NCBI GenBank assembly: GCA_030549175.1
Contig: JAUKUA010000002.1
Span: forward strand, 4,898,001 to 4,962,000
Reading direction: 5' to 3'
From: Lasiosphaeris hirsuta
Taxonomy: Eukaryota; Ascomycota; Sordariomycetes; Sordariales; Lasiosphaeriaceae
Length of the DNA: 64,000 bases
Positions 1 to 61,621 of this stretch are shown here, piece after piece. The position numbers and the translations under genes are program-made. Positions within the stretch are counted from its first letter, which is position 1; every line of letters starts with the position of its first letter. The notes beneath the pieces were generated by a model that saw only the letters and a list, made by a program, of their open reading frames with translations, was not told where the DNA came from and did not search any database.

Positions 1-3000
1 TATTAGGTAGGTTATTCGTGGCCGGATGATATCCGTAGTTAACGTAGAAAGGAGAGCTACTAATAGAAGTCGACCTAGTGTTATTTTATGTAAATTCGGC
101 TGTAGGTAATAAAGTGTCCCAGTTATTTATCTCATAGTTAACGAAGGCTCTGAGGTAAGCCTTGATATACTAATTAAGACGTTTAGTCTAACTATCTATT
201 TCGGGGTAGAACGAGATTAATATCTTTAGCTTAACTCCGACGTATTTAAGAAAGTCGTACCAAAGGCCTATGTTAAATCGTAAGTCCCGATCAGAGATGA
301 TATCAAAGGGTATACCGTGGTATTTCTAGCATTTGTAGGTAAAGAGAGAGATTAAGTTTTTTATCTTCTTAGTGTTATCCTTTAAAGGTATAAAATGTAC
401 TATCTTAGTAAAGGTATCGATAATGACTTAGATAAAATTATATCTATTAGAGAGAGAAAGGTCTATTATGAAGTCTATTAAAATAAGCCTCTACGGGAAA
501 TATTCTAGCTCGATAAGATAAAATAGTCCGAAAGGAAGGTAACGTCTTAGCTTGTTACTTTGACACTTATGATAAGAGTATATAAAGTCAGTGACGTCTT
601 TCTTGAGATTCTGCTAGAACATGTACCGTCTGATAAGTTTAACGGTCTTATTTATACCTATGTGGCCTACTACTTTAATGTCGTGTTTAGAACGGATGAT
701 CTAGATCTTAAGTTCCTTGTTGTTAGAGATCTAGATACGATTCTTTATAAATAAGATTCCGTCTTCGTTAGTTATGTCTTTTCTAAGGGAAACCAAGGCC
801 TTTTAATAAGTCTCGTCTATAAAGGTAGTAACTTTAATTTACTCGAAGAATTCTTCGTTCCATTTTAGTGTTGAAATGTTATAAAGACGTACTTTTAAAA
901 ACATAAATATAAGAACTTTAGAATGTAAGAAATGTTCTTTGTTTAAAACAGAGGTTATTAGTTAGTTTTTATCCCCCCTTCCAGAAGGTACTTTTCGTGC
1001 TGTAAGAGAGTATTTGCCTTAGCATTTTGTGTACCGGGACGGAAATTAATGACGAAATCGAAGGTAGTAAGCTACTAAGCCTATCGGGCTTAGTAGCAGT
1101 TAAGGACCTTGGTAGTCTAGAAGTATTCTAGATTATAATAGTCTAAGAAGACCTCGATATGATATTTAACTCTTTTAAAGTAATATCTCTAACGTTAGAA
1201 GTAATTAACTATCGCTAAGAGTTCCTTATCGTAGATCTCGTAGTTAATTTCTATAGGAATTAGCTTCCTTAAGTAGAATATTATAGGATATATCTTGTCG
1301 TTATCTTACTTCTATGATATTATTTCTTCTAACGTATAGTCTGACGTGTTAAGTTCGATAATAGGTAGTTTATTAAGGTTAAAATAGACTAGAATAGAAG
1401 CTTCGGTAAATGCTTTCTTTAACGCTTTAAATGCCGTGTTCATTTAGTTGTTCTATGTCTAGGTCTTTTAGGTAAGGTTTGTAAAATCAATAAGTAACTT
1501 AGTAATATGTAAATAGCCTTTGATATAGTACCTATAAAAGTTTACAAATCTATTAAATTACTAAACTTCTTTTACCGATTTTAGCTATTCTTATGAAAGG
1601 ATATATTCTATCTTATCCTTCGATATTATGATACCTTTAATATTGATAATATAGCCTAGGTATTCCAATTCCTTAGTATCTTATATGTATTTAATAAGAT
1701 TAATAGTTAGATTATATTTCTAAAGTCACTTAAGGACTTTAATAACAATTTTGTCATGTTCCATTTTAGAACTTGTATAGATAAGAAAGTCGTCAATGTA
1801 AGACAGGAGGCCTTAATCAATAAGGTCTCGAAAGATATGATTTATCATATCTTAAAAGGCCATAGAAATATTAGTAAGGCCGAAAGACATTACGTTAAAC
1901 TTAAAAAGACCGTAACAAGTTCGAAATGTTATTTTCTACTTATAATCTTTTTTTATCCGAATCAAATTAAAGCCTAATTTCAGATCTATCTTTATAAAGA
2001 TAACAAATCTAGTGAGGGCGTCTTAGAGTTTAGTAATTAGAGGTAGTAGGTAACGGTTCTTAATAGTTCATTCGTTAATCTTTCGGTAGTCAACTACTAG
2101 GTAGAGATTCTCCGGATCTCTTATAGCCGCCTTTTCTAATGATACTTCCTTATTTATAAAGAAAATAAGTAAAGAATATAATGATTTTGATTCCCGTATC
2201 TTACCTTTTCTAAGTATTTAGTTTAGTTATTTATAAAGGATTTTCTTTTCTAAGGGTGATATAGGATAGAAAGGTCCTTATAGAAGTTTCTTGTCTCTAA
2301 TGATATTAATCACATAGTTCCAAGGCTGGTGATTTAATAACTGTTAAGCCGCTTTAAGAGATATTAAAGAAGTAAAGATTTTAAATCTTTCGGAGATATT
2401 TAAAATGTAGGAAGTCGTAACGTTTACGATAGAGCTTTTACTTCCTAAGATCATAAAGGAAATATAGTTTTGTCAATAGTAGTCGGAACTGAAAGCTACT
2501 TTCGTTATGTTAAGATCCCATAGGTAATCTGGCTAATACTATTATAACTACTAGTATAGAAGAAGGATGTCATATTCTATGTCAAGGGGAGAGATTTCGA
2601 ACGTGATATAAGAGAAGTATTTTACTTAGTACTATAAAACAATTTCCTTAGTATACTCCTTATCTGATTTAAGGTTGATAGTTCTATTAAAGGCTTCTAA
2701 GGGTTTTAGGATCGTTTTACATTTGTAAGAGATGTTTTATTTTTTAACAAGGTTTTTACTTATGACCGGGCTAGAGGTACTAGGATCTAAGAGTACTTAG
2801 ACAGGGATTTCCTCAGCTCCATAGTAGACGATAGTCATAGGGACGATCTTATAAGTACCATAATATAGTTCATAGTTTCGTTTAACCTTCTTACGAGAGG
2901 GTTTCTCTATGTTATAGTTGGTACGTTTTTTAGTAAAGGTTACGGCGGGTCGAGGTATGATTCCCGATGCCGCGAGTTTCGGGATACCTATTAAAAATCC

Positions 3001-4100
3001 GATATATCTTCGCTATCGGATAGTTTAATAATATGAGGAAAGAGTTTGGGAGGGTCTTTTTCTGTCATTGTAGAGACCTTGGCCTTTTTCGATAGTTAGG
3101 GAGAAATATCCTCTTCTTTATCTCTTCCACACTTAGTCTTAGCTCCGGAGATCTTTCTAGGTAACTTAAGGATATCCTTACTATCCTCAGTTTTTCTACT
3201 ATAACATTTAAGAGTGTTATAGCCTTGACGTTCGTAACGGTAGTATCCCTTATTTACCTTATGTTTATTAATTTTAGCTTATTCTATCTTGGCGATAGCC
3301 TCTTTATAAGTTTACTAGTGCTTCGTTCGGGTAGATGCTGAAGGGTTGTCCTTTCTATCTTATTACTCCTACTTTAGACCTTTCTTAAGTTTTTCTTTTA
3401 CAGGTACTAGATGTAGACGGGAGCTAGAGATATTAGTTTCCTCCTGATAACTATCTTTTTTTGAGCGTTCCTTATTATTCGAAGTAGACTCTCCTTTTCC
3501 TTACTTGGCTTTGTGATTAATTTCGCGGTTCTTCATTTTATCTTTATGAATTAAGTTAGTAGTAACGACGGCTTCGAGAAAGTCGGTATCATTAGTAAGA
3601 AGATATCCCGTACGTGAATAAATTAAGTTTATTATAGCGTCAGGGATAGTATTAGTAACTAGTGATTATAAGGCCTAGCCGTTGAGATCGACGGTATGAT
3701 TAAGTTTCTAAAACTTTATTACGTACTCGTTTATATCTCTATCGTAAGTTAGGGTTTTCATAGCCTCGTAGTCCTTAGCTCTTTGTACTAGGTTACAAAA
3801 ACGTTCGACTATGACGGTGGCATAGTTGTTCTATTGATTTACTAGGCCGAGCTTTTCGATTTAGGTTCTTCTTTTCTGATACTATTCGAAGGTAGTACTT
3901 TTAGTAAGAGTACCGACAAAGCTAATCTTAGCCTTATCATCGAGGAAACTTCGTTTATAGATACTAAAATACTCCTTAACGGAGTGTTACCATATCTTAA
4001 ATTCACTTTTATCCTTTCTATTGTACTTTTCGGGTTTCGCCATGGTTACGGCGGTACCTTAACCACGGGATTCCTAAATTACATTGGTATTGTTACGAAT
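1..4100 (-). pseudogene. Gypsy-1 gag-pol remnant
   Basis: Translating the minus strand gives a recognisable Ty3/Gypsy polyprotein broken by many TAA/TAG codons. The gag zinc knuckle (3204-3245) keeps its spacing, but two Cys and the His read as Tyr. The RT active site reads YIDDFL (YIDD at 1789-1800), so the catalytic aspartates survive by chance. The integrase zinc module has His codons at 683-685 and 662-664, a Cys at 563-565 and a Tyr in place of the other Cys at 572-574. The first catalytic Asp of the integrase core is at about 473-475. Such polyproteins make virus-like particles, copy the RNA and integrate the cDNA. This copy cannot be translated. The 5' limit of gag is unclear: 4100-5453 is equally mutated, and I could not assign it. 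Confidence 0.8.
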
Positions 4101-5453
4101 TAGGTCTTGATTAGTCCGGATAAGGTTGAGGAGGATTACTATAGGGTCACGTGGAAATAAAGGGCTTTGGGATCCCGGACCCTAAGGTCCTAGGGGTCCC
4201 GGAGGCTTAGGTAGGCTTCCTAATAGTCCGGGAGAACCGGGAGGTAGACTCGTATAATAGAAGTCGTCGTCTAAGTTATTATTGTTATTACCGTCGTCCA
4301 GAGGAGGTAAAGTATCTATCCTAACATAGCGGAGAGCCGAGTTTCCTCTTATGTTTCTACTTCTTATTTTAATATCAAAATTTTATATGTTATCTACCTG
4401 TCTCTAGGCTCGTACCGAGATTTCTTAGGTAGCCCTTCTTTAGAGGTTACGGTCTAAGAGGGGGTCTTCGTCTTAGTCGAAATATCGTATGGAAGTTGAC
4501 TTTTTAAACGGTTATAACGGCCGTCGTGAGGGTTTAACAGAAGGGGTTTTCTATAAACATGTCATAGCCCTCTAGATGATTTGTTCTTTATCATAAGACC
4601 TTACCCGTGTTAACCGTGATACGAGGGCTTTTTCGATAAGGTTATTAAAGTAGGCCTTAAGCTAATCAAACAATTCTTAGTCTTTTAGAGTTTGTAATAC
4701 TCTAGGTTACTAAAATGTTATAAGGAAATTAAACTGGCTCTAGGCCGTAGTAGACTAGTAGCTAAATTCCGTGTTATAGTAGTCTTATCGAGCTTACTTT
4801 TCTTCTTAAATTCGAAGGAGTTCCTTAACTCGGACAAGCTCGGCGTTTTATTTTCTAACCCTTACTTCTTAGTCTCGTACTTGTTATACTTACTGTAACT
4901 TTTACTTGGTAATTTCCTTACGGAGGGCTTTTATACGTGTAACAATAAGATTAAGAGATTTTTTACGTTAGGCTATTTAGGTAGTAAACTAAGCTAATTT
5001 TTAGTTGACTTTAATACTAAAAGTAGTATAAGATATTTCTAATTTTTACTAAGTACTTTTAAGGACATATTAATTTATCTTAATATATTATACTATTAAC
5101 TGATAGTCGGTAACTAAGGTAGTAAATATTAAAGTAAGTAAATCGAGCCTTTCCTTATCTTCATATATATTGTTAATAAAGAAGTAAAGTTCCTTATAAG
5201 CTTTAACGACTTAATTGTAGAGATAAATAAACTATTGGAATAGTTTAGTAAAGGTTTCGGAACTCGATAGGAATATAGGAAACTTTTTAATAGTTTATAT
5301 TTCTATCTTAGGAGGTTCTTAGATCATAAGGTCAGTTCCGGGGTTAGGTTCGGTTTCCCGGCCCCGAAGTACCGTTAAGTATGATATAGGATTACCGGCT
5401 ATTATAAATGGAGCGGTAGATAAAAGGATTGTTCGTAGAGTAAAAAGATTATC

Positions 5454-6766
5454 TGTGATATAGGCTAGCTCTAAGAGATCTAGGATGTAATAACCATAAG
5501 GTAAGATATCAAATAAAGAGTCAGACTATAGAACTTTAACCTTTTCTTAACTTTCGACTTAACCGTTTAACGAACTATCCTAACAATTATTATTAGTCTA
5601 ATTTAGAGCTTTCACACGACGAACTTAAGGACTTAATCTTCGTAAGGCTAATAAGTATAAGGTCTAATTTAGAGGTTTAGAATAGAACGGTAAGGGAGTT
5701 AACTATCGTAATATAAAGTAATAGAGAGCTAGGAAGAAAAAGGTTTAAAGAGATAGAATGATCTAACAGAAGATAAGACATAATACTTCGTAGTTATAAG
5801 TTAGGAAAAACAGAAGGGTTCATAAGGTTATATTATCTCTTAACTTCACTAAAGTTCAGTTAATAATCTTTCTAGGTTTGTCTAAAGAAAACTAGGGAGC
5901 TTCTTCCTCTCGAGGATCTATCGTAATATACCTGTCCTACTTATAGAAGGCTATGTATAAGATATAAAGATACTAAAATACCTAAAGGATCCTCCTAGCT
6001 ACCCGTCGGTCCCGAATCTCCTTTCTAGCTACCCGTCTCTCACGTCCTACAAATCCGTAGCTACATGCCAAGTAAAGCCGGCCTATCACACGTTAGTCCA
6101 TGGCCGGTATTAGTACTTATCTATATAGCTCTAGCGGCATGGTGTCTATTACTACAGGTGTTTCTTCACGTCCTTAGTACTTACGTTAGCTACAGTACTG
6201 TTAGGTCGATCCCATGTCGACTATCACAGTAACGGTTCCCTTCGTGACTTACACGCGGGAGTCACAGCCACCTGTCACTACTAAAGCTAGACTCCGGAGA
6301 ACGTCGGGTTCCAGGTCTTCCAAAGGAATGCCAACGATAACGGGGAGGTCCATGATTCGAAAGACCAGCTGTAGGGTCTGGGTTAACTGTACAGGCCCTG
6401 ACCACGATACTAAGATTAAATAGCTTGTCCATGACAAATCTGAAGTCTGATAACGTTACCTAGCGTAGGCGAGATCCGTTATACGGCTGCTCTGGCTCGT
6501 GAGTGGTTCTGGTCATTCCATCGCGACCCGTGGGTACTCATGAGAATCCGCTGACCTACGTGCCGGCTGAGTAGGCCACAAGCTACGCGTGGGATCATGT
6601 CCCGAGGTTAAGCCACGTTGTGGCCCTTCTCTGTGATAGTTCCCTTATCCACGTGATCATGGGTCAATGGGTATGTGCTTCTTATGTGTGGTTCGTGCCG
6701 CTGGTATAGGGCTCGGTCAAGGAGGTTAGTGACCCTGTTGACCTAGGTAAGCCTACCAGTGTGACA
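5454..6766 (-). repeat. LTR-A copy 1 (LTR of Gypsy-1)
   Basis: About 1.31 kb, starting TGTGATA and ending TGTGACA on the plus strand, so it has TG...CA ends on both strands. It aligns over its length with 22397-23745, 60288-61621 (inverted) and 61622-62581. It is more heavily RIP-mutated than the copy at 22397. A 70-80 codon open frame at 6214-6423 recurs in the other copies but shows no protein character. Confidence 0.8.
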
Positions 6767-7005
6767 CCTTTCATATGAGATATTGTAGAGAAATCACAGT
6801 GCCGAATCTAATCTATACCTTTCTTATTAGTAGTCTAGCCATTATCGGTTATTACGATATACTAGGTACCTAGAAGGTTACACTATTAATACTAGTTAGT
6901 AAAGTAATATTAAAAGGTAGCCTTGGTGCCAACTCCACGTCCCGAAGATGTCTCCCACAAATAACGCGTATACAATAAACAAGACGTGGTCCATAAAAAA
7001 CATAA
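6767..7005. other. AT-rich spacer, no gene seen
   Basis: Sequence between the LTR and the Rep fossil. Stops are frequent in all frames, including TAA codons at 6976, 6994 and 7003 in the frame that later encodes Rep. I found no convincing stem-loop with a viral nonanucleotide. The run TAATATTAA near 6905 is not flanked by inverted arms. Confidence 0.4.
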
Positions 7006-8505
7006 AACACGTCACCGTGTCTCACATTGACAATGCCGAACGTATCAGTTGGACTGTCGCAATTGTTCGACATAAGTTCCCCTTCTGTCGTGGAGATACC
7101 AGGCTCCTAAGATTCTCTCAATTCATTCATCGTACCAGATTCATCTTTCAATACATACGCTCAACTAAGAGATAGCCCATCTCCAAACCCGTCTAGTCTG
7201 TTCGTGACACAATCCGAGCAGCTAGAACGCGGTACATCCGAACCAACAGTCGCACCAAAAGGCCCGGAAGGAATGGTATGGTACGTGACATAGCCAGACA
7301 ACACTGTAGTACCTACCAGAAAAAAACGCGACTTCCGCTTAGCTACTAAATCAGTTTTCCTCACTTATCCTAGATGCCTACTAGACACAGACACATTTAA
7401 CGCGGCAATGAACTCATTCGGATTCGAGGATTACTTTATAGTACGTGAGAGTTACCAAGACGGTACCCCGCACTTTCACGTGATCAGCGTCTTCCCTAAA
7501 ACGAAAAATATAAAGAACACCCGCCACTTCGACATTGGCCGATACTACCCGCAGATCGGTAAAACTCGGAGCCCCATCGCAGCGTGGAAATATCTCCACA
7601 AAAAAGAAGACAGATCCGAACACATCGGCGGTGACCTCGTCATCCCGAAAACGGCCCGAGTCGTAATGTAAGACAACATATGGAAGGATACCGCCAAAGC
7701 CGAAACAAAAGACGACCTCTTCAAAACGTTAAAAGTAGGCATACCATAACAGTTCATATGTTTATACACTAACATCAAAGCTTACGTAAACGATATGTTC
7801 AAGGCCGAACGTGAACAATACGTCTCGCCACAACTAGACGGCCTCTGGGAAATCCTAGAAGAAATAACAGAATAGATAGAAAAAAACCTCCATAACTTAC
7901 TACATAAGTACTCTCGTATAACAAGATATGTCACTCGGGTACCCTCTATTAGACGTTCTAAGCTTATTATTATCAGAATGTAAGGTTTCCCCCTCCCCTC
8001 CCGGGAGGGCCTCTCTCCGAATTCCGAAATAGAGTGTCGCTAAGTTACTTAGGGGGCGTCCTTTCTCTCATTTAGATACCTAAGATCTAAAAACAAATTC
8101 GGGGCTTCGTAACTAACTTTTCTTTAGTAAGACTGAAATCACTAGTCCTATTTGGCCTGATAAGACTGTAGAAAATAACATGGGTACGAAGTTTAGATAA
8201 CTATTATTATATATAAGGGTATTGGAACGGTATATTACTCGATAAGACTAAAAAATATATCATTCTTAACGATATTTTATTAAGTGACAATAACATGTGC
8301 CGGTATTACAAATAGATTCTAAGGTACTAGACGTCTTTTATATATATAGATAAGTATAAGCCGAAGACGAAAGTTACTAAATAGGAGTTGCTGTGTATCT
8401 ATGTTTGTAATAGGGACCTAAGAGAATTATATGACGGAATCGATGTAAATTAGTTAGAAAGGAATTATATTTTCATCGAAATTACTAGCCTCCTTTTTAT
8501 AGAAC
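7006..8505 (+). pseudogene. Endogenous CRESS-DNA virus-like replication initiator (Rep), degraded
   Basis: Rep proteins of geminiviruses and genomoviruses nick and join single-stranded DNA (N-terminal HUH endonuclease) and unwind it (C-terminal SF3 helicase). Seen in order: motif I FLTYP (7357-7371), motif II HFH (7471-7479), a GRS-like stretch (7522-7560), the motif III Tyr...Lys pair (7591-7602), a Gemini_AL1_M-like central region (7672-7900), Walker A (8144-8167, with Asp where the last Gly is expected), Walker B (8256-8276, first Asp read as Asn), the motif C Asn (8409-8411) and the conserved C-terminal block to 8505. Eight in-phase stops (7669, 7747, 7873, 8214, 8313, 8328, 8382, 8451) are all TAA or TAG. 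The frame changes once at a probable intron and once near 8165-8180. An open in-phase stretch at 7006-7320, with two stops, may be an N-terminal extension. No capsid gene is visible nearby. Family assignment is strong; virus versus genomovirus-like transposon is unresolved. Confidence 0.8.
7980..8127 (+). other. Probable intron in the Rep fossil
   Basis: The 148-bp stretch starts GTAAGG and ends in an ACTAAC branch-site match followed by a pyrimidine tract and TTTAG. Removing it moves the reading frame from phase 1 upstream to phase 2 downstream, exactly where helicase motif A follows. The stretch contains a GC-rich palindromic CCCGGG core unlike its flanks. Introns in Rep genes are known in mastreviruses and genomoviruses. 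Use of this one is inference. Confidence 0.55.
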
Positions 8506-8745
8506 GAATGCCGCTAGGAACACTTACTTTAGTATAAGATAGATTGGAAGGATTTTTATTATAGATTAAGAAGGACGAGGAATTTCTATAGTTATTTAGT
8601 TACCTTCTTTTTAATATATAGTAGTCTTAACTCTATTAATCTTAATAGCTAGTAAAACAGTTCTTATAGTATCTTTCTTTCTCTATGCTATGATAATAAT
8701 AAATGCCTCTGACTATGACATACTGGGACGAGACGATTCTATATA
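8506..8745. other. AT-rich spacer, no gene seen
   Basis: Between the C-terminal Rep block and Gypsy-2. The Rep frame soon runs into clustered stops. No other coding signal or repeat was recognised. Confidence 0.4.
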
Positions 8746-8750
8746 GATAT

Positions 8751-8984
8751 TGCTACGGTTAAAAGGACCGCTTGTGTAAGTGTTACTTTGGTGGTCCTTC
8801 ACATGAACACTGATATGACATATTGTATGGTAGTGTAAATAATTTGTAAAGGATAGCCCGTTAGTAATCAGTCTGGAGGGTGTACTGCCATTATATGGCA
8901 GCGTACCTCCTGTACTCAATTGAGCGTAGGGACTACGTACAATGGACTAACCTAGCTAGGCTATCTACATTTTTCTACGTAACA
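8751..8984 (-). repeat. Gypsy-2 3' LTR
   Basis: 234 bp, TG at 8751-8752 and CA at 8983-8984. It matches 18185-18418 at nearly every position, and the differences seen are C/T and G/A transitions. The identical length of both LTRs shows no indels since insertion. Confidence 0.9.
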
Positions 8985-9130
8985 TGTGTCCGGGGTAAAG
9001 AATAAAGAAAAGGGCGTCCTTGCCATCGTCCTCCGCTCTCTTGAACTATAAGAAAAGTACCAATTTTTCCTAGCCCTTTCGTATACCGTTGTTATACTTA
9101 GATTATCCTATTCCCTACGTTTATGCCCCT

Positions 9131-10741
9131 TTAGTCTATAGTGTCGAAGAGCGTCTTTCGTCTAGTCGTCTTGGGAGGCGACTTCTTAGCGGTAGGCTTC
9201 TTACGACCGATACCTTTGGTAAGGGTCTCTTGAGTAAGAGAAAAAACTACCGACTTACTACGTATACCAACCTTAGGAGCGTCAGTATCGAATAGGTTAG
9301 TAAGGATACCGTACTTATTCTACTTCTTAGACAAAGTACCTATAGTTATGATTTTACTTTGGGTATCCTTAGTAAGACGCTTATGTAAGGTACCGAGGGT
9401 TATAATAGGTATAGGAGTACTTAAATGAGTAGTCGAGGTAGCCGTAGGTCACGTAGCTGATAGTTACTTGATAGTCTTATTAAGCTTTATTAAGTCTTTC
9501 TAAAGATCTTAGACTTAGTTATTAAATATTTTAATCTTCGGGCTAACCTTATTTATACGGCCTGTTAGAACGTTAACTTACTCCTTAGTAACGTACTTAT
9601 TAAGGTTATCTATCGTCATTCTCTTTATAACCTAGAAAGCTTCATAGACCTTATCGTAACTTAGAAGCTCCTTAATCTTATTCTTAAGGATATTAATCTT
9701 ATCCTCAAGGTACTTCTAGAGATCGTATATGTTAATAAATATACTGGCTGTAAAAGATATATAGACTACTTTAGCCTCCTTAAGCTCTATAGTCTTATCG
9801 GTAAGTTAGTACTTAAGATATTAGAACTATATATGTCAGTATTAGTTTATACCGGTAATAAGAGTATTCGCTTAGTCGGCCTAGGTATAAACTTATGTAA
9901 GGTTAAGGTAATTAAGGTAGATAAGGACTAAAGATAGTTTCTTGTTTAAAATAACTATAAGGTAATAGTAAATAGTTATAAGGATAGATATCTTTAAAGG
10001 TAAATAGTTATTATTAATATCTTACTTATTATATATCGTCTTAGCCTTATTTAACAACTTCTTTAACTAACATATATACGGGTTATTAGCTAGACCTTAG
10101 TTTTTAATAGTCAACTTTAATCCTTTAGTAAAGATACCCTTAATCTTTTTATTTATTATAAAAAGAAGCTTCGGATCGTCAATTATAAAGGCGGCGTATT
10201 TATAAGCTTCTTATCTACTTACTAACTTATTATAGTACTTAAACTCAAAGTAAGCTTTATAATCTAGTAAAATCTCAAGCCTCTTACCGCTAGTAATAGA
10301 TCACTTAACTCTCTACTTAGCTTATTTCTAAAGTACCTTTATACCTTAGCGGTAATACTTCTTAGGGATACGATATTTAACGGGTAAGCTAGTAGAAAAG
10401 CTAGGTAAGCTATCTGAGAGATTTAAGGTTATCTCTTTATCCTTGTTATCGAGCTTACCTTTTATAGTAAGGTTAAAGTTATTGTCCTTTACATACTTAC
10501 TCTTATTATTATCGTAGTTAGAATCATAGTTAGGTAGATCGTCGGGCTTAGGCTCATCGTAATTATCCTTATTATGTTCGGTAGTAACGGTAACACTCTC
10601 TTAGGCTTATTTAGTACATCTTAAGGTTTCTTCGGCTAGAATTTAAAGACACGTAAGATTTGGACTCTTAGCCATTAGACTGTCCTTAAGTACGTCTAGA
10701 TTGTTCGGCTCAGCTCAAGCTACCTCGAATTGACACTTCAT
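9131..10741 (-). pseudogene. Gypsy-2 ORF3: extra ORF between integrase and 3' LTR, unknown function
   Basis: The minus strand from the ATG at 10739-10741 to the TAA at 9131-9133 is 537 codons. Checkpoints near 10276 and 9292 lie in the same phase as the ATG, so the frame has no net indel. Only nonsense codons of RIP type interrupt it (at least a dozen TAG/TAA and a TGA). The product would be hydrophilic: an acidic Asp/Asn-rich N-terminal third, a Lys/Leu/Ile-rich middle that may be helical or coiled coil, and a very basic Lys/Arg/Thr/Pro tail near 9150-9240. I see no signal peptide or membrane segment, so an envelope protein is not indicated. I do not recognise the family. The position is that of accessory ORFs in some retroelements. 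Confidence 0.6.
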
Positions 10742-13700
10742 TTTATAAATATACTTTTATAAATAACTAAATTTAACTATCTCAAAGTATAAATGAACGT
10801 GATAGTAAGATATAAAGAAAGTATAAAGGTATAATTTAATAGCGGCGATAAGGATAGTAATAGTTATAAGAAAGAAAAACGTGAAAATTTTATAGGAGGG
10901 GTTTTTTAGTTAGTAGCCTAGCCTAATAAGTTAGGGCCTTATAATAAGGAAAATTGACAGAGGAAAAACGACGTTATAATAAGGCTTTTATCTAATCATC
11001 TAGTCTTTTTTAGCTTATAGTAAAAAGGTACTTATATAACTAAGTAAGGTTAATAAAGAAAAGTAAAAGAAAGAAAAGATCTAGTATTATAGCTAGAATA
11101 CTTTCTTATCTTATTAAGAAAGCTATTTGTCCTCGAAAATACCTATTATCTAGCGGTTTGGTACTGTGGAAGCTTAATTATTATTTCTATAGTAAGGATA
11201 ATATCGACCTTAACATACTTAACGGCCTTAATATCTTTCTTCTTATGTTCCTTATTTTAGTCGATAAGGTTCCTTACTTCGTAACTTATGACGATATCTC
11301 TTATATTTAGTAATAGGTTTATTCTTAGCTCCTATATATCGTTCTTAACTTCGTAGTTCTTTTAACGGACGAGGTACTTAATGTTTAGGTTCTTTTTCTT
11401 CTAGCTTACTTTATTACTGACGATATAGTCGAGCTTCTATTCTTCTTATTTATTAACCTTAACAGCTAATAATACCTATCACTTTCGGCTAAAAGAATCT
11501 TTACTTTGTTAAGGATAGTATAGTTACATAACTAAGATGATTAGATATACTCTTTATGATATCAGAAAGTTAAGCTTATAAGTTAGATTACTTATCTTTA
11601 CTTTATTAATAATCTTAAATGAGCCTACCCTTTGAGGTAACTATTTTCTTTTTAGCTTACCGGATAGATAATAACCCTTATAGAGACATAAGTAAACAGT
11701 ATCTCCGATCTTAAAGGTCTTAGGTATATACTTATCGTCATAGTAAAGTTTTGTCATTATGTTAACGATGTTAAGAAACTAAATTACTTCTTTTTAGTAA
11801 TACCTCTTAAGAATCTTCGTTACCTCAGTACCTACTCTTATACCTTCTTTTATAGTTAAAATGTCTACTAAAGACCTTAGCCGGAATTTAAAGACTAGTT
11901 TATTAAGTAATCTATTAATCGTAATAGCTAACGTGTTATTAATGTTAAACTAGAACGATGGTAATATATTAACTTATAGAACTTTTCCATCTGTTATAGA
12001 GATATAGAAATAAATAATAATCTCGACTATTTAGTTTATCTTCTCTAACTAGCTATCGGTTTATAGGTAGTAAGTAGTAGAAAAGAGTAGTTTAATATCG
12101 TAAATATCGAAAATCTCTTTTTATAATACCGAAGTAAACTTTAAGTCTCTATCGTTAATAATTATCGTCGGTAGTTCTTAGTCGTATATAAATAATAATT
12201 TCGTTAATACCTTTACCTAATCCTTAGTTATATAGGTATAGTATCTCGTTAGTAAGAGTGTTTTTTTAGAAAACTTATATATAATTATATAAAGTATGTT
12301 AAGTATATTATAACCTTCGAGGTATTATATCGTTCTAGCTGATAAGACTATAAGTAGGTTAATAATGAAATCTATCGTAATAGTATAAAACGGCTATGAA
12401 GTTATATAGATAGGTATCATTTCCTTATTTATAAGTTACCTATCGGTTTAGTTTTAATAGTAGGTCTTATAGAATTAGATAAAACGTTTCGCTTTCTATG
12501 CCTTATTAGTAAAGTATATATTCTAGAGGTTGTCTATTATCTTATAGAAACCGAAATGATACGATTTATCGTAAATTATCTTAAGTATTGTCTTAACGTA
12601 CGTTCTTAGGATATAGAGGCGATGATTTCTATTATGATTGACGTAATATAGTAACTTATCCTTGATCTTAAATAGTTCCATTAGGAGTCGTAGGTATCTC
12701 TTAGGTACTTTAGTATATTCTGCCCGTTGTAATATGATAGGTTTTTCTATCTTGGCGTTGATACTAGTTATTAACTTATTATATTTCGTATCGTTTTTAT
12801 AACTCTCGTATAAGACGGTTTTAAACGAGTTATTAATAACGGACTTGGCACTTACCTAAGTAACCGTAATAGATATCTTATCTCCTATGTTCTATACCAT
12901 GGCTTAGATATTATTAAGCTCGTTAGATTTATCTGTCTTAAGCTTCTTAAAGTCCTATTTAAACGTTAGAAGCCGTAAGAGTATATTAGGAACGATATTA
13001 AAAATGCCTAGGATATAAAAAATGTCGATCTTAAACTAAGAAAGTTAATTTACTGTATTCGTAAGCTTGAGGTTAGTTTTATTTAAGTTTATTGTTACTA
13101 AAGACGTATACTTAACGATACCTTTAGTAAGAGTATGATCCGTTAGGACGTTTAGACGATGTTAGTTTGACTAAACTATCTTCCTAAGCTTCCTAACTAC
13201 CTATATAACTATTATAACCTTTACCTTTGTAGATTTGTATTTCTACTCGGTTATGGTAGTTACTCTTGATAAGAATATGATCGGTAGAACCCTTTTCGTT
13301 ATAAGGTCGTACCCTGAGATTACTTTCTTATCTTAGTTATTCTTAAGTTAGAAAATAAAGAGGCTAAAAGCTCCTTTATAAGTATCGACTTTGAAAAATA
13401 ATAACTTCGTTTTAACGTGATAATAAGTTATAAATTATATATATAAATGTTCCTATAGTAGGTAGAAAGATTTCTGTTTATTTTTTAAAAGTTAAAAACG
13501 TATTTTCGATATGTAAGCCTTTCTCACGTTTTTTATACTTCCGTTTATAATCTTTCTTTCTTTACGGCCTAATATTAATAATATTATCTTTTTCTTTTAT
13601 AACAGTCCGGCTTTGACGTTATACTAAGTAATCTTATATCGTAGTTATTCGGCTATCCCTAGATAGATCTTAAGTATATTTAACGTGTCTAGGAACTTTA

Positions 13701-16700
13701 TCTTTTAGAAAGTTGTAATTTAATCATTCGTTTTCACAACTCCTTTTCTATTAATAATATATCTTAGGAGTTAAATCGCTAGATAGGCCACGAATAACTT
13801 ACTAGTATTAATATATATCCTCACATCTTCTAAAAGCTTAAGTATCTTACTTATGTACTTATAATACTCGTCTTCTATAGTACTAAAGACGACGATGTTA
13901 TTAATGTATACCTATACGAAATTTTAACTATCACGGAATAGGCGGTCTATAAAATGTTAGGCGAAAGTAAGTAAGTTCTTAAATCCTATAAGTACTACGT
14001 TTGATTACTCGAGCCTTCTTTTTGTGATGATAACTATATAATTATAATATTTGTTATAGACTAGTAACTAATAGAAGAAACCGGAGGTATTTATTATAGA
14101 AAAAACCTTTTTTTCTTATATTATAAGGATTATGTCGTCTTAGTCCGTAAGTAGATAAACGTCTAGTATCATAATCTTATTTAAGGTACGTAAGTCGACG
14201 ATAAGACGGCCTTTCATTACTTCGTTAACTGTTCTCTATACTACGAAGGTAAGGTACGTGATAGAGGTTGGTTCGTTAAGAAAGGTTAGCTTTCTAGCCG
14301 TGTATATAGTATTAAGTCTCTACATAGTAAAAACGTAATCTTTCGCTCCCTAGGAGTATAGCTTTGTTAGCTTGATTTAGTTTTATTATCCCTTAACAAA
14401 GTTAATTTTTATTTTACTCTTATCGGATATAAGTACGATGTCTCTGTCATAAAATATATTATACTTATTTAGAAGGTCTTTGATCCTTTTTATAAAGGCT
14501 TTATTTACCTTATAGATACTTATTCTAGCCTTACTCTTAATAGTAGGAAAATCGGCTAGCTTCTCGACTCTGTATAATAGTATGTGATATCCTATCTTTA
14601 GAGGGAGTAGCTATGAGATATCGACGATCTCTATCTCGTTACTTACTTAACTACTTAGAATATAAATAAAAATATCTTCTATTTTACCCTCGAGTTAGTA
14701 GATTTTATTAAGGATAGCTAAATGACATTCTTCCATGTCAATGTTATTAAGCTTTATATAATGTCTTATAGAAGAGACTTATATAATCTTCGTTCTTATG
14801 TTCGTGTTATAGCTCGTTAAATCGAATGTAAACGCCTATTCTACTCCGGGCTATTCTTAAACTTTCCTAATCTTCTAGCCTCTCTTAATGATTATCAGCT
14901 CGGATATTTAGTTATAAAAGTATATTATATAAGATGTTAAGTAGTCGATGTTACTATCTTAAATACCTTCTTATGTTAATATAAGATAAAAAGTCTATGG
15001 CCTATTATAAATATACGTCTCCTTAGGTAATAGTTTTAATAAATCGTATATCTTAGTCTTAATGAAACCTTTCTCTCTAGGTATAAAAATAACACTTTAG
15101 AAAGTAATGACCTTACGTGTAATCTTTTAGCGAGGTTTAATAACTAGGTCCGTCCTTATCTTTATATTTCTAATAGATCGGAAAGTAACACTGTTTCTTA
15201 GGAAGTCGATAGTTACGTTATTATCATCTATGAAAGTAATACCGATTAACATATGTAGCCTTAGCTCGTTAATAACATTAGCCTTTATATAAAAGTAAGC
15301 GTTGACATTAGTTTGTTATATTATATCGGAAATATAAAAATCGAACTTAGCTTACTTATCGATGTAAGTTTTTAAGTTAACTTCCTTAACAAAACGGAGT
15401 TTCTACGGTACCTAACGTAAATAATGTATCTATTTCTAAATCTACTTTTTATCGATGAGGTTAGTTAAGCTACCAGTGTTAAAGTAGACGTATGTAAGTT
15501 TATTATTTAAGTCTACTTTGATGTTGATTCGAAGATAGGACTTTTTCGGATGTTAAGAGCCTATGGGATGAAGTAGTAGGTTTGCTTTAATGACCTGTCC
15601 TTTCTCGAGGATAATATAAGTTCCTTTATCACTCGAGTTATTACTGTTTTAATCCTTTATTAAGTAACTTTCCTAGGTTATAATAAATCCTTTATCTTCC
15701 TCTTCTATATCTTCTATAAATACCTATTTAAAACGAACCTTCCTTATGTTGTTTTTACTTATTTTTATGTTCCTATTATCTTTTAACTTCTTAAAGCTCT
15801 TTAGCTCTTCTCTTAAATAGATAGGCTGTCTCGGAGTCACGGGCTTTATAAGGGACCTTTACTCCCTGAAGATCATAGGCTTCATAGGAGGTATGAGAGA
15901 CATAGGCTCTTCTAGGAACCTAGGTTTCTAGCGTGTGATTAAACCTTCCTTTAGCTTCTACGGTTATTTGATATACTTCGTCCGGATATGCCGTTATAAC
16001 TTATTTCTATAGTCGAATATTTCTGTATAGCTCGAACATTTATACTTTTTCTTATTAGGCGTCTTATACTAGGTAAGGTTACCTAGTACTATAGAAGAAC
16101 GAAGGAAAGCTAAATAGAAAGAAGACATCGTAATATTAAGAAAAGTAGTAATATCCTTTTCCGATTCTTCTTCATTAATAAAGTAATATCCCTCGGCCTC
16201 GAGTTACTTATATTATTACTAAGCGTTAGTACTTTCTCTATAAATAAACTTATTATTAATATAGGTAAATGTACCGTTGTCATAAGATTAGTGTTGGCCG
16301 TAGTACTACTACCTCTAAAACACTCGGTTTGGTTAGAAACCTCTAGGTACTTAGTTGTTAAATCTCTAACATAGGTATATATCACGGCTATATTCGTTTA
16401 CGTTACTAAAGTATAAACGTCCTTACTATCCGCTTCTTTAGTTACTAGAGGATAACCTTTTATTATTAAAGTACCCTCGATTACTGTTATTACCTTATTA
16501 AGTAATTTATCTTTCTCGATCGTTAGCTTGACCTCGTCTTCTATCTTTACTAACCTAGTTAGTATTATCGTCGCTATAGGTCACAGTATCGTTATTATAT
16601 AATATCGTCTTAATTACTTTTGTAACCGTTTCTTTAGTAACTAACATATAATAAGATGTTAATATCTTTTCTTCGATCTTATCGAGGTAATCACGAAGTA

Positions 16701-17900
16701 TGTCTCTAATAGTTAGTCGAATATAGAGCTAACATAATTTCTCGTATAGGTTGTTATATAGCTTAGTAAGTAATTAAAAATCTTCCTTGTCTTCCTATAC
16801 TCTTACGTACTTAAAACAATCTATCACGTACGTACGGACTGACTTACCGGTAATATTATCTTCGGCTTTGAACTTACTTATAGGTTAACTAAACTATCGT
16901 TTTATATCTACTAACTTTAGTCTAAATTATTAAAGGATAATTATGACTTAGTTAAAGACACTTAGTCTTATGTATTCTTTGTCCTTAATTAATAATTAAA
17001 GCTCGTACTATTAGAGGGTTAATCTCCTAAATAATAAAAACAGTTCTTTATAAAAAGTACTATATCTATCTAAATCTAAGGCCGCTTCTTTAACATGTAT
17101 AGTCTAAAGATAAATATTATAGTAATAAAGTTACTTACCGTCATAGAACAGTTAGGCCTTACTGTCTTTCTCCGGTGGTACGTTTAGCTAGAGGAGACTG
17201 ATATGATAGATCTACCAGTTAAAGCCTCTCGTCGCTAACGGAGTACTTATTTAAGCCACGGGGCCGGTCACCGGCGTATTAATCCTTATAAGGGTAATCG
17301 TAAGATATGTCTATATAACCTATATTATCTACGTAAGTTACTCCTTAATTGTCAATTACCTCGGAGGTAGAAATAGAGGTAGACCAGGAGGTTACTTGTT
17401 AACATAATCCTTAAGCGGATCTAAGTTCTACCCCGGCGTATAGTCTTCCGCCATTTCACTTAACATTACAGGTGAGAATCCTTCGTCTTACGATATAATA
17501 TCGGATTTCCTTGATATAGTATCCTATCTAGCTACTAGTGTCATACTACTTAGTAGTAAGATAGTTAACGTACCCCTAAGTATTAGGTCCGTAGGTAGTA
17601 ACGTTGTTAAGGTCTATTAGGTACCCCTTAGTTCTAGCGTTTCCGCCGTTCTTAAGTACTTTGGTGTTAGGTAAAGGCCTTCCTATACTTCTTAAAGGTA
17701 ATTGTCGACCAGAGTTTTAAAGTACTCTTTCGAAATATGGTTGTTAACGTTCTAGGCGTTTAGATAACTGTTTTGAATGGGGCTTCTTAAGTAGGTAAAT
17801 GTTCTATTAATAAGAAAAATTAGGCTTACTAACGCCACGAGTGCTTACTTATACTCTGGCTTTACGTTAGTCTACTACTTGACTCTTAGATTCTTAGAGA
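10742..17900 (-). pseudogene. Gypsy-2 gag-pol remnant
   Basis: Seen on the minus strand: a C2H2-like finger at the end of gag (first Cys codon 16036-16038, His 15988-15990, last His codon mutated to Tyr at 15973-15975); the RT active site YxDD at 13897-13908 reading Y-I-N-N, both Asp codons turned to Asn; downstream text typical of the RT thumb; and an integrase zinc-binding module at about 12430-12580 with His and Cys codons partly changed to Tyr. Stops are TAA/TAG throughout. The finger between gag and protease is found in a group of fungal Gypsy polyproteins. The exact gag start and the protease were not resolved. 10742-11100 appears to be the spacer between pol and ORF3. Confidence 0.75.
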
Positions 17901-17968
17901 TATAGTCAAATACCTATTAGGCTTCGTAGAGCTTAACAATGTATATCTACTTATCTTGTTATTTTAAC

Positions 17969-18102
17969 AGTAGGTCGCCGACTCAGTTAAGAGCCTTCGT
18001 GCCGTTAACACGTACGTTGTCGTTGTTGTCTCAATAGTAGGCCGCCGACTTAGTTAAGAGCCTTCGTACTGTTGACGTTAACGTTGTCGTTGTCTTTATT
18101 AT
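17969..18102. repeat. 67-bp tandem duplication in the Gypsy-2 leader
   Basis: Two imperfect 67-bp units begin at 17969 and 18036 with AGTAGGYCGCCGACTYAG and share a GTTGTCGTTGT end. They lie directly inside the 5' LTR, where the untranslated leader should be. Confidence 0.7.
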
Positions 18103-18184
18103 AACGTGGTACAAGCTAGTGTTGGTCCCGGAGGCGTCAAATTGACTGATGAGGTTTATCCGATTCGATAGTAAGGACATTACT

Positions 18185-18418
18185 TACTACGGTCAAAAGG
18201 ACCGCTTGTGTAAGCGTTACTTTGGTGGTCCTTCATATAAATACTGACATGACATATTATATGGTAGTATAAATAATTTGTAAAGGATAGCCCGTTAGTA
18301 ATCAGTCTGGAGGGCACGTTACCATTATATGGCAGCGCACCCCCTGTGCTCAATTGAGCGTAGGGACTACGTACAACGGACTAACCTAGCTAGGCTATCT
18401 ACATTTTTCCACGTAATA
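18185..18418 (-). repeat. Gypsy-2 5' LTR
   Basis: 234 bp, partner of 8751-8984. Its terminal TG and CA are changed to TA on the plus strand, consistent with RIP. It is followed by the GATAT target duplication at 18419-18423. Confidence 0.9.
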
Positions 18419-18423
18419 GATAT

Positions 18424-19211
18424 TATCGTCCTTTATCTTCGGTTCTATCTTCGGTACGACTAACGGCTACTCTACTTATATATAAGGAACATTAAATAAA
18501 ATATAGAACATGATACTTATATACTAAATAATATCTAAAGTATAGTCTACCTACTAAATACTATCTATACTATTACTACTTATTATAACTTTTTTCTTCT
18601 AACTAAGTTAAATAGAAAAAGGTCGAGACTCTAATATCGATATACTACACAGTTTATAAACAAAACTCTTATCTAACTAAGTATATATCTTAGCTTCCTT
18701 CTAAACTAGCTAATATATAAGAGGACGTGTATTTATATAAGTTAACAACCCCTTGTTAGAAAACAAATATATATAATCTAAGGTCTATAGCTTTTTACTA
18801 GGTAGTAGAACCTAAGTAGACAAAAAGGGCCGGATATTACCCTTTAGTATGATTCTATTAGAATCATACGTCGTAAACGAACTCCGTATTAATATAAGAG
18901 ACGGCTGAAACGTTAAAATCTTAACATAGTAAGTCTAAGAATAAACAATATCGAACTGTAATTTTACCTTATACGTCTTGATCGTATTCGTGTTAGTATC
19001 GTCACTTCATAATACCTCCGAACTAAGAACTAAGAGGACATAGGGATCTATACCGATATATATATCCCTAAAAATGTACGAATAGTCCTTATCGTATAAA
19101 TACCGTTTTACGTTTTTTACAGTACTAGTAACTACTTTAACCTTCTAGGTAAACTAGTAATTAGGTATATTAAAGCGGCGTCTCTATTAGAGACCGCTTA
19201 AGAACCTCTAA
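18424..19211. other. AT-rich RIP-mutated stretch without a recognised gene
   Basis: Dense stops in every frame. The one local structure noted is a perfect inverted repeat with 10-bp arms and a 1-bp spacer at 18848-18868. Confidence 0.4.
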
Positions 19212-19511
19212 CCTATTACTAGCGGTATAAGGGAGGTAGAGAAACGGAACGATAGTCAGTACGGCCGGAAAGAATCTTATACCGTCGAAGAGATAGCTAG
19301 AGAAGATATTCGTTCCTATGACACTTCTACTACATAAGCTCTAATTGATCAGCTAATTACTAATCATATAGCAAGTCAGGAGGATGACGGTAGCGGTTTC
19401 GGAGTGAGCTCGACCTATATGCCCGACTAAAAGGGAATATATGACACGAGCGTCTACGAAATCGAACCTAAGGATCGTATACTGGCGGAGAGAAAGACAT
19501 ACGTTAAATAA
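19212..19511 (+). pseudogene. Broken ORF of unknown function
   Basis: One hundred codons in a single phase, interrupted only by two in-frame TAA codons, inside otherwise stop-rich DNA. The translation is hydrophilic and mixed, with charged Glu/Arg/Asp-rich stretches, and does not resemble the gag or pol of the neighbouring elements. It ends about 200 bp before the tRNA-like boxes. It could be a fragment of an unrecognised transposon or of a host gene caught by RIP. No start codon can be assigned. Confidence 0.4.
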
Positions 19512-19724
19512 TCGTGTTAATATCGCCGATAGGGACGTCGTCGATACGACGAAAACCGCACGGTACGATATACAGAACGATACGGGCGACGATAGGGACG
19601 ACGAAAACCTCTTTGTCGGTAACGTGGATAAGGCATAAGAACTGACAAAAAAATCCCAAGGGAACGGTTTACATATGAGGAGTTGATGTAAGAGGAAAAA
19701 AAGAACAAGGAGACGGAGGCCAAA

Positions 19725-19910
19725 TGGCCGAGCGGTTAACCGCTTGACCATAGTGCGAGAGGTTCGGTTGATATTTTGCCGACGTGACAAATCGTCCCAT
19801 GTATGTACCAATTGAAAAAATGCCTCACGGAGAACGTACATAGTGGCTACGTAACAATTACGCACGACCCCGCACCCTGCAGGCACTGGCCAACCACGAA
19901 GGTTCAATCC
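19725..19910 (+). other. tRNA-like pol III A and B boxes (possible SINE head or tRNA pseudogene)
   Basis: 19725-19735 matches the A-box consensus TRGYNNANNNG and 19902-19910 matches the B box GWTCRANNC. The start resembles a Leu/Ser-type tRNA, with a palindromic AGCGGTTAACCGCT D-arm region. The boxes are about 165 bp apart, and I could not pair the acceptor or T arms, so a working tRNA is unlikely. Confidence 0.25.
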
Positions 19911-20057
19911 CCCGAGTCTGGACGATCGTAATCTCCCACCGTCGGATGCAGGTACACAAGTGTGCCATCCATCGGATCACACACCGTAAACATCCGAGGA
20001 CATCTCCTGTGACACACTGCCAGGACAGAGGACATCAGGACATCAACACCAAGGCTG

Positions 20058-20722
20058 TAATATTACTTAGCTAAGATAATAAATGGTAGGATAGCCTAGC
20101 CTAGAACATTTACTCCTTAGATGACTATAGCCCACTCTCAATTACTAAACTGGGCTTATTTGGCCCTACCACGGCTATTAGAGGTAGTAACTAGCATGGT
20201 AAGGATGATAATACCTATCATAAAGCTGATCTCGTCGAAATTATACGAATCTTCGTTAAGGATACCGTACTTAGCCTTAGTATTATACACAAGCATAAAC
20301 CACTCACGAATAACCTTTAGATCTTTACATTTAGCCCTCTGGTAATCGTATTTACACGTAAAACACGTCCGAAGTTCTAGCTAACGTTTAACGAAGTTGT
20401 AAGCCTAACGTTTGCCGACAGGGGGCACATCGCGTTCACGTAGCAATCGATTAGCCATATCTTCTACGTACAAAAGCCGGGGATGAAATACATAAGCACA
20501 TAGCTTAACTATATATCGAACAATCGTTTGATCTTCTAAATCGGTAAGTTTACGTAAGTTGGCCGGAATATCACGTCGCGTAGGTATACCGTCGCATCTA
20601 CGTACAAAGGTTTTGAAGGAAACATTATAGATATTGGCTGCAGCTCGTAGGCTTAGATTTTTGTCTTTTTCAAGAGCTTGAAGGGCCATAATAAGCCTGC
20701 CTTCTTTTGATGATGAGGCCAT
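20058..20722 (-). pseudogene. pogo/Fot1 transposase, N-terminal half
   Basis: Starts at the ATG 20720-20722. The first 105 codons are open: a psq-type helix-turn-helix (residues about 8-50) followed by a CENP-B/Tc5-type DNA-binding helix-turn-helix (about 55-105), the double DNA-binding head of pogo transposases. The frame then continues past a TAG at 20405-20407 for about 100 more codons with few stops, reaching the start of the DDE catalytic domain, whose first Asp is at 20234-20236. Fot1-type transposases are about 500-550 residues, so over half is missing. Stops are TAG/TAA/TGA of RIP type. Confidence 0.75.
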
Positions 20723-22396: not shown

Positions 22397-23745
22397 TGTG
22401 ACACAGGCCAGCTACCGAAGGTCTGGGGTGTGACAACCACAAGGTGAGGTATCAGGTGAGGAATCGAACTACAGAGCTATAACCTCAAACACAACTTCAA
22501 CCAGACAGCTGACTACCCCGGCAATGGTGTTAGTCCGATTCAGAGCTTTCAAGCCTTCCGACTCAGGGAGATGATCCTCGTAAGGCTTCGTACGACTCAA
22601 TGGTCAAGTGACTCGGCACAAGGTGGGATTCAGAGCTTTGGCACAGTGGTTGAGGGAGTTGATCGTCGTAGCCCAGAGTGGTAGTATGCGCCGTGGGAAG
22701 AGGAAGGTTCAAGGAAATGGAACGATACGACAGAAGATAACATACGATACTTCGCAGTTGTAAGTCAGAAGAAACGGAAGGGTTCACAAGGTTATATTAC
22801 CCCTTAGCTTCATTGAAGTTCAGCTGATAATCTTTCTAGGTTTGTCCAAAGAGAACTAGAGAGCTTCTTCCTCTCGAGGATCCGTCGCAGGGTACCAGCA
22901 CTACTTATGGAACGCTATGTATAAGATACAAGAATACCGAGATACCTAAAGATCCTTCCTAGCCGCCCGTCGGTCCCGAATCCCCTGTCTAACCGCCCGT
23001 CTCTCACGCCCTACAAATCAGTGGCTACAAGCTAGGTGAAGCCGGCCTATCATACGTTGGTCCACAGCCGGTATTAGTACTTATCTATACAGCTTAAGTA
23101 ACATGGTGTCCATTGCTATAGGTGTTCCTTCACGTCCTTGGTACTTACGTTGGCCACAGCGTTGTTAGGTCGATCCTATGTCGGCTGTCACAGCAACGGT
23201 TCCCTTCGTGACTCACACGCGGGGGTCGCGGCTACCTGTCACTACTAAAGCTAGACTCCGGAGAACGTCGGGGTCCAGGTTTTCCAAAGGAATGCCAGCG
23301 ATAGCGGGAAGGTCCATGATTCGAAAGACCAACTGCAGGATCCTGGCTGACTGTACAGGCCCTGATCATGATGCTGAGGTTGAGTGGCTCGTCCATGACA
23401 AATCTGAAGTCTGGTGACGTTGCCTAGCGTAGGCGAGATCCAGTGTATGGCTGCTCTGGCTTGTAAGTGGTTCTAGGCATCCCGTCGCGACCTGTGGTCG
23501 TGCCTGAGGATCCATTGACCTGCGTGCTCGGGCCGAGTAGGCCTTGAGCCACGCGATGGGATGTGTCCCGAGGTTAAGCCACGTTGTGGCAACCTTCTTG
23601 GTGCTGACTCCACATTGACAGGTTCAATGCCCCCCTGTTGTTGTGGGTCCATGATGTTATGTAGGTGTGTGGTGTGTGCCGGTGGTGTGGCTCGGTCAAG
23701 GAGGTCAGTGACCCTGTTGACCTAGGTGAGCCTACCAGTGTGACA
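22397..23745 (-). repeat. Solo LTR-A with perfect 5-bp target duplication
   Basis: 1349 bp from TGTGACACAGG to CCAGTGTGACA, flanked by CTTAT at 22392-22396 and CTTAT at 23746-23750. This marks a complete insertion that recombined down to one LTR. It is the least mutated LTR-A copy. The orientation given follows copy 1, the LTR of minus-strand Gypsy-1. Confidence 0.9.
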
Positions 23746-23750
23746 CTTAT

Positions 23751-60287: not shown

Positions 60288-61621
60288 TGTCACACTGGTA
60301 GGCTCACCTAGGTCAACAGGGTCACTGACCTCCTTGACCGAGCCACACCACCGGCACGCACCACACACCTACACAACACCCATTGACCCACAAATATTCA
60401 TTGAGACCCTCATGATTCAATATGGAGAAGGGAACCATCATAAAGAGGTTGCCACAACGTGGCTTAACCTCGGGACATACTCCTACGTGTGGTCAGTAGC
60501 TTATTCGGCCCGCACACAGGTCGAACGGATCCTCACGTACGACCACGGGTCGCGACGGGATACCTAGAACCACTCATAAGCCAGAGTAACCGTACAACGG
60601 ATCTCGCCCACGCTAGGCAACGTCACCAGACTTCAGATTTGTCATAGACAAGCCACTCAACCTCAGCATCGTGATCAGGGCCTACATAGTCAGCCAAGGT
60701 CCTACAGTTGGTCTTTCGAATCATGGACCTCCCCGCTATCGCTGACATTCCTTTGGAAGACCTAGAACCCGACGTTCTCCGGAGTCTAGCTTCAGTAGTA
60801 ACAGGTGGCCGTGACCCCCGCGTGTGAGTCATGAAAGGAACCGTTGCTGTGACAGCCGACATGGGATCGACCTAACAACGCTGTGGCCAACGTAAGTACC
60901 AAGGACGTGAAGGAACACCTACAGCGATGGACACTATGCTACTTAAGATGTATAGATAAGTACTAATACCGGCCGTGGACCGACACGTGATAGGCCGGCT
61001 ACACTTAGCTTATAGCTACAAATTTGTAGGGTATAAGAGACGGGCGGCTAAAAGGGAGATTTGGGACCGACGGGTGGCTAGGAAGATCCTTTAAGTATTT
61101 TAGTACCCTTATATCTTATATATAGCCTTTCATAAAAGAATAGGTACGCTGTGATAGATCCTCGAGAGGAAGAAGCTCTCTAGTTTTCTTTAGACAAACC
61201 TAGAAAGATTATTAGCTAAACTTCAGTAAAGCTAAGGGGTAATACAACCTTGTAAACCTTTCTGTTTCTCCTGACTTGTAATTACGAAGTATTGTATCTT
61301 ATCTTCTGTTAGATCATTCCATCTCTCTGAACCTCCTTCTCCCTGGCTCTCTACTACTTTGTATTACAACAGTTAACTCCCTTACCGTTCTGTTCTAAAC
61401 CTCTAAATCGGACCTTGTGCTTATTAGCCTTACGAAGATCAAGTCCCTGAGTTCATCGTGTAAAAGCTCTGAACTAGACCAATAGTAATTGTCGGGGTGG
61501 TTTACTGAACGGTTAAGTCGAGAGTTAGGAAAAGGTTAAAGCTCTGTAGTCTGATTCTCCATTTGATATCTCACCTTATGGTTGTCACACCCCAGACCTT
61601 CGTAGGCTAGCCTGTATCACA
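60288..61621 (+). repeat. LTR-A copy, opposite orientation to copy 1
   Basis: Full-length, 1334 bp, from TGTCACACTGG to CCTGTATCACA. The flanking pentamers differ (TTATA and GGTTT), so it is not a simple solo insertion. Confidence 0.85.

Follow-up and report, generated by a model that had tools for sequence, protein, structure and literature searches.

The window analyzed here, a stretch of 64,000 nucleotides from contig JAUKUA010000002.1 of Lasiosphaeris hirsuta, carries a damaged copy of a repeat unit that encodes a replication initiator protein (Rep) with a geminivirus-type catalytic domain. This unit would quite probably represent a rolling-circle element of about 3.5 kb that was opened at its replication origin, joined by its own Rep at chromosomal look-alikes of that origin, and inactivated by repeat-induced point mutation (RIP). 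An original prediction, made from the letters of the window, had described a fossil Rep at 7309..8505; that observation is partly confirmed and its interpretation is partly supported. The extent was too narrow, the unit comprising 6905-8750 plus 18424-20065, with a long terminal repeat (LTR) retrotransposon nested between the two halves. The unit ends, the origin hairpin, the right half past the retrotransposon and the target sites, in which the main finding lies, had no place in that prediction. The features of the unit and its borders are as follows.

6795..6904, no strand: left flank, a repeat family with empty sites elsewhere
6905..8750, plus strand: left half of the Rep unit, 1,846 bp (limits of homology among copies at 6902-6905 and 8750-8751)
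6905..6912, no strand: left-end 8-mer TAATATTA, giving TAATATTAC on the minus strand once the G at 6904 is included
6919..6928, plus strand: hairpin arm AGCCTTGGTG
7294..7671, plus strand: open Rep piece with the Gemini_AL1 catalytic domain, 125 amino acids (profile matches)
7669..7923, plus strand: Gemini_AL1_M central domain, interrupted by stops (profile match)
8746..8750, no strand: GATAT target duplication to the left of the nested retrotransposon (from sequence)
8751..18418, no strand: LTR retrotransposon within the Rep unit, LTRs at 8751-8984 and about 18185-18418
18419..18423, no strand: GATAT target duplication to the right of the nested retrotransposon (from sequence)
18424..20065, plus strand: right half of the Rep unit, 1,642 bp, adjoining the left half in other copies
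19996..20044, plus strand: three iteron-like repeats, GAGGACATC, GAGGACATC and CAGGACATC
20047..20056, plus strand: hairpin arm CACCAAGGCT, complementary to 6919-6928
20058..20065, no strand: right-end 8-mer TAATATTA, giving TAATATTAC on the minus strand once the G at 20057, which belongs to the unit, is included
20066..20175, no strand: right flank, the same repeat family as at the left flank

The two halves in the window total 3,488 bp. Among uninterrupted units in the searched genome (44.4-Mb assembly, 14 contigs), three have lengths of 3,486, 3,487 and 3,488 bp, and a fourth is 3,410 bp long. Past the nested retrotransposon, whose LTRs are about 234 bp long, homology to the other copies resumes at 18418-20070. 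The Rep region is present in eight copies, one on contig C7, five on C2 and two on C13 (cited below by contig and position), and the seven others are 73-85% identical to that of the window. The proposal of a RIP-damaged, multicopy Rep carried by a mobile element is borne out. C2 (602,790 bp) bears five of the eight copies and C13 (957,171 bp) two; both are possibly accessory chromosomes. A protein match at C7:903276 (E 0.33) was taken as chance.

The Rep gene and its damage

All three rolling-circle endonuclease motifs that had been predicted, FLTYP, HFH and YLHK, are found within the single open frame 7294-7671 (definitions of motifs I-III of the HUH catalytic domain from PMC6668415; here and below, published work is cited from the parts consulted). 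The Pfam profile Gemini_AL1 matches this piece with an E value of 3.2e-10, its score of 40.5 bits exceeding the cut-off of 24. The expected central domain was recovered as Gemini_AL1_M at 28.2 bits, again against a cut-off of 24, with the stops bridged by the search program itself; it was matched in the window copy and in no other Rep copy. Pfam matches to the Rep piece up to E 10 are confined to Gemini_AL1, REP_ORF2-G2P and Phage_GPA, and no Helitron-type Rep is among them. Helitrons possess another Rep family with a fused helicase.

C:G-to-T:A changes are present between the Rep copies, as had been proposed, and in the columns where the copies vary between C and T, T before A is the commonest state; we take this pattern to be RIP. 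The frame across 7309-8505 holds 22 stops (12 TAA, 8 TAG and 2 TGA), in place of the eight, all TAA or TAG, counted earlier. The catalytic piece bears stops in the seven other copies; that of the window is open, with stops downstream. The RIP index is near zero beside the ends (-0.05 at 6905-7293 and 0.02 at 19501-20065) and 0.48-1.3 in the interior, and the left ends are well kept across copies (80-92% identity).

Ends of the unit and the split origin

Whole-genome pattern searches yielded eight left ends (six exact, two with one mismatch) and 12 right ends (seven exact, two with one mismatch, three with two); four right-end matches with three mismatches were taken as chance. All of these ends lie at one point of the unit, and no copy opened at another point was seen among them. 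The 8-mer TAATATTA stands at 7 of the 8 left ends, C13:456107 having TAATATTG, and at 11 of the 12 right ends, the exception being the degenerate C2:297773. The Rep frame is on the strand opposite to TAATATTAC, and geminivirus Rep is likewise encoded opposite the strand of the nonanucleotide.

The two 10-bp arms are set back unequally from the unit ends. At C2:98351-98388, where two units abut, CACCAAGGCT and AGCCTTGGTG are joined around a TAATATTA core; this joined hairpin is known from one RIP-damaged tandem junction only. Geminiviral origins are cleaved at TAATATT^AC, and origins of this kind have a stem of 9-11 bp and a loop of 10-13 nt (PMC7826260). The terminal 8-mer is the known Rep cleavage core.

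Target sites

Empty sites were readable for seven insertions, with seven target sequences. For the insertion in the window, at least 26 empty sites were found among the 40 of 55 candidates that were scored, and 12 were read; four were read for C13:148362, one for the C2 tandem and two for C13:456107. The LTR A site, with 16 empty copies, received C2:250307 in one orientation, whereas C2:211522 and C13:448319 lie there the other way round; the independence of the latter two is doubtful, since target and orientation are common to both. Retrotransposon B offers two sites (16130 and 16850), with ten empties read at each, and 33 genomic rows, that of the window among them, span both. C2:244763 sits between these sites and has its target in common with a unit on C12; the two may represent one event copied together with the host retrotransposon.

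The targets are 10-mers resembling GTAATATTAC, namely GTGATATTAC or GTAATATTAC itself, GTAACGTTAC, GTAATGTTAT, GTAATACTAC, A or G followed by TGACGTTAC, GTAACGTTAA, and GCAATGTTAT. The full purine/pyrimidine pattern of GTAATATTAC, a measure that ignores RIP-type changes, occurs in six of the seven target sequences, in most or all empties read (11/12 in the window family, 16/16 for LTR A, 10/10 for B 16850). The seventh target, B 16130, agrees at 9 of 10 positions, and at random positions the full pattern is found in a fraction of 0.00067 of 161,920. Within the window family, the empty L087 has 9/10 of the pattern. The row L095 reads GTAACGTTAC one base past the automatic anchor, where the automatic read-out had been 3/10.

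Target and end have several bases in common, the plain identity of the empties to GTAATATTAC being 4-10/10, as would be expected if circles had integrated at random through microhomology and the origin were merely AT-rich. A 3.5-kb circle has thousands of junction points, though, and the 8 left and 12 right ends use one of them, so that such an explanation is very improbable.

Origin of the terminal 8-mer

In six filled copies, the C/G sites of the flanks are changed at 47/148 (16-52% per insertion), whereas at the C/G positions of the target 8-mer in these six insertions the filled ends have T/A in 11/11 cases; multiplied by hand, the per-site rates give about 3e-6 for a single end. Because of this difference, the ends were most likely already TAATATTA at the time of insertion, which speaks against a free 8-bp target duplication. 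Either both end 8-mers are derived from the element, or an exact match was required of the target. RIP itself may have created landing sites where it changed sequences resembling TAACGTTA and TGACGTTA to TAATATTA.

An 8-bp target duplication would be the signature of a cut-and-paste DNA transposon with a captured Rep gene as passenger. The identical 8-mer at both ends and the short inverted arms near them would suit such an element, and the geminivirus-like transposon of truffle does have transposase open reading frames (ORFs) (PMC3198968). Yet the 8-mer is constant while the empty sites vary, which later RIP hardly explains (11/11 against 47/148), the arms are unequally set back, and the 8-mer coincides with the cleavage core of Rep. 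Moreover, no transposase family was found in the pieces tested against Pfam and PHROGs, which cover the second half in part. We regard a cut-and-paste origin as improbable.

Proposed mechanism

The units form a family of rolling-circle elements, all broken, whose Rep is of geminivirus type and whose site specificity is most likely origin-to-origin. A circular element of about 3.5 kb would replicate by rolling circle and encode a Gemini_AL1-type Rep, with a hairpin as origin whose loop, on the strand that does not encode Rep, contains TAATATT^AC. Rep would nick this origin as well as chromosomal look-alikes of it (GTAATATTAC-like 10-mers) and would join both; the circle, presumably a single-stranded intermediate, would thereby be opened at the origin and land at the look-alike. 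Each insertion would leave TAATATTA at either end, and an end could become the target of the next insertion. RIP would have inactivated the copies now found. That readable insertions lie exactly at origin-like sequence suggests that the viral replication-initiating enzyme doubled as the transposition enzyme.

The ages of the copies are consistent with such a succession. Six young copies differ, per pair, by 249-549 transitions and only 4-24 transversions (0.2-0.7%), while C2e and C2d stand apart from the young copies by 1.5-1.7% and 3.2-4.1% transversions, respectively (unit lengths in general and the distances of these two taken from slices without flanking bases, the distances among the young copies from slices with 1-2 flank bases). 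Between the members of the C2 tandem, 34 of 1,197 sites show transversions (2.8%), compared with 0.2-0.7% among the young copies, and the pair therefore probably arose by serial insertion, the second unit going into the end of the first. At least three waves of insertion would have preceded the RIP that struck the near-identical copies.

The same sequence data would also fit a real virus or plasmid that integrated repeatedly, in the course of infection, at look-alikes of its origin, with no movement between chromosomal copies, so that the units would be endogenous viral elements. This view shares the joining step with the transposition pathway outlined above, and the probabilities that we assign to the two overlap. 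Among the metagenomic relatives, the Gemini_AL1 proteins P0001-P0017, 12/17 are on contigs of 2.8-3.2 kb, and the group looks like one of small circles. The transversion distances, however, fall into at least three classes, which suggests a lasting resident lineage, and Gemini_coat gave no match in the unit, in a search without positive control (the controls gave nothing either). We consider repeated integration doubtful, if possible. For the movement of a resident element by its Rep, we lean slightly toward a new class of eukaryotic rolling-circle transposon, in which a Rep of the circular Rep-encoding single-stranded (CRESS) DNA type would, by one nick-and-join reaction at TAATATT^AC, both replicate the circle and place it, regenerating the target at each end.

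Several points weigh against the rolling-circle element as reconstructed here. No intact copy was found among the Rep copies in the genome, the seven further ones included, and hence activity cannot be shown. The Walker A, B and C helicase motifs of the original prediction were not recovered: none of 55 RNA_helicase (PF00910) matches in the whole genome is inside a Rep copy, and two home-made helicase profiles, run on stop-to-stop pieces, did no better than decoys (best 4.7 bits against 5.1 for decoys, and 1.3 against 2.8). With phytoplasma Reps, tblastn gave only a weak alignment, at E values of 5.6 and 2.0, near the place where Walker A would be expected in copy C13:148362, and RIP damage may conceal a superfamily 3 helicase. 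The hairpin fold at the tandem junction (z -2.24) is moderately above shuffles, 6 of 200 being as good, and four right-end units have no detected left end.

As to the targets, the sites were already known when the purine/pyrimidine measure was chosen. By plain identity to GTAATATTAC, the 16 empties of LTR A score only 4-8/10, and 1.4% of random positions reach at least 7/10. None of the 16 is exactly TAATATTA, which suggests either that the target was already changed by RIP or that both end 8-mers came from the element. C2:244763, finally, is not a clean insertion, 712 bp between the two look-alikes of retrotransposon B having been replaced; this replacement and the C2 tandem point to exchange at the motif.

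Relation to known systems

Among related proteins, those with the best scores reach 34-40% identity. A Rep tree of 120 rows and 106 columns, built from the window piece and 119/137 proteins (of the rest, 15 were left out because their matches were short and 3 because they had none), places the piece loosely with the relatives P0001-P0017 and phytoplasma Reps, on a branch of 2.36 that is too long to trust, and almost all rows are unnamed. The best match in BFVD is A0A1S5QMN0, a viral protein of 452 amino acids, with 47% identity over 123 columns. The other BFVD rows listed reach up to 35% at 100 columns or more, and one row of 86 columns reaches 42%. Scans of IMG/VR for viral relatives returned 0, 0, 0 and 2 distant loci, and the phage collection contained no match.

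Genomovirus genomes are about 2.2 kb in size. Those of geminiviruses are given as 2.5-3.0 kb in the source consulted, and the unit of 3,486-3,488 bp exceeds both. Likeness to Geminiviridae and Genomoviridae lies in the catalytic and central domains of Rep, the TAATATTAC hairpin loop and the position of Rep on the opposite strand; in contrast to them, the 3.49-kb unit is integrated in multiple copies, with no coat gene recognised (by the search without positive control) and no helicase detected. Of the predicted geminivirus/genomovirus-type Rep, the geminivirus-type catalytic domain therefore stands, while membership in either family does not follow, given the tree branch, the size and the coat search. 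Phytoplasma plasmid Reps (12 records) are 28-37% identical in the catalytic domain, but belong to bacterial plasmids and not to integrated repeats.

The geminivirus-like transposon of Tuber melanosporum has terminal inverted repeats of 37 bp and two transposase ORFs, and its copies are more than 95% identical (Liu et al. 2011, PMC3198968). A Gemini_AL1-type Rep, many copies and the lack of an obvious target duplication, as far as reported in the parts consulted, are features of both systems. The unit described here differs in having set-back arms of 10 bp and no transposase in the searched pieces, and the consulted parts of the truffle paper mention neither origin-derived ends nor a target sequence. 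Replitrons, compared by description only, are alike in their HUH endonuclease, their size of 0.9-4 kb and their direct terminal repeats of 5-11 bp, a range that the 8-bp TAATATTA at both ends fits (PMC10741241). Helitrons, including those of Fusarium oxysporum, are alike in HUH rolling-circle movement, evidence for circular intermediates and tandem insertions, but their targets are short, for example A|T or TTTT|T (PMC5148889), unlike the 10-mer here. In adeno-associated virus 2 (AAV-2), a viral Rep likewise steers integration towards chromosomal sequences that resemble the sites bound by that Rep; this linear parvovirus, however, integrates near the Rep-binding sites, whereas the junctions here are inside the 8-mer (PMC2900306, PMC3918229).

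In the literature searched, outside of which most subscription papers lie, no description came up of a CRESS-type element whose ends derive from its origin and whose targets resemble that origin. The HUH fold is common to virus Reps and several transposases, and a shift of endogenous viral Reps towards transposition has been proposed in a study of endogenous geminivirus sequences of yam (PMC5014472). With junctions, empty sites and relative ages legible for the whole family, that proposal becomes testable, the mechanism being readable from the element's own junctions.

Other features of the unit and the window

The right half, 18424-20065, was searched for a second gene with Pfam and PHROGs on some pieces and by counting stops common to four copies; a minus-strand frame of 207 amino acids at 19353-19976 had no family match. 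ARAGORN detected 0 tRNA genes and Rfam nothing relevant in 6700-20400. By the consensus that we assume for such boxes, tRNA-like A and B boxes are present at 19725-19735 (TGGCCGAGCGG) and 19901-19910 (GGTTCAATCC). Two multicopy, RIP-damaged LTR retrotransposon families occupy 1-6766, 8751-18418, 22397-23746 and 60288-62587 of the window, and the 1.3-kb LTR of the first of these families recurs within it.
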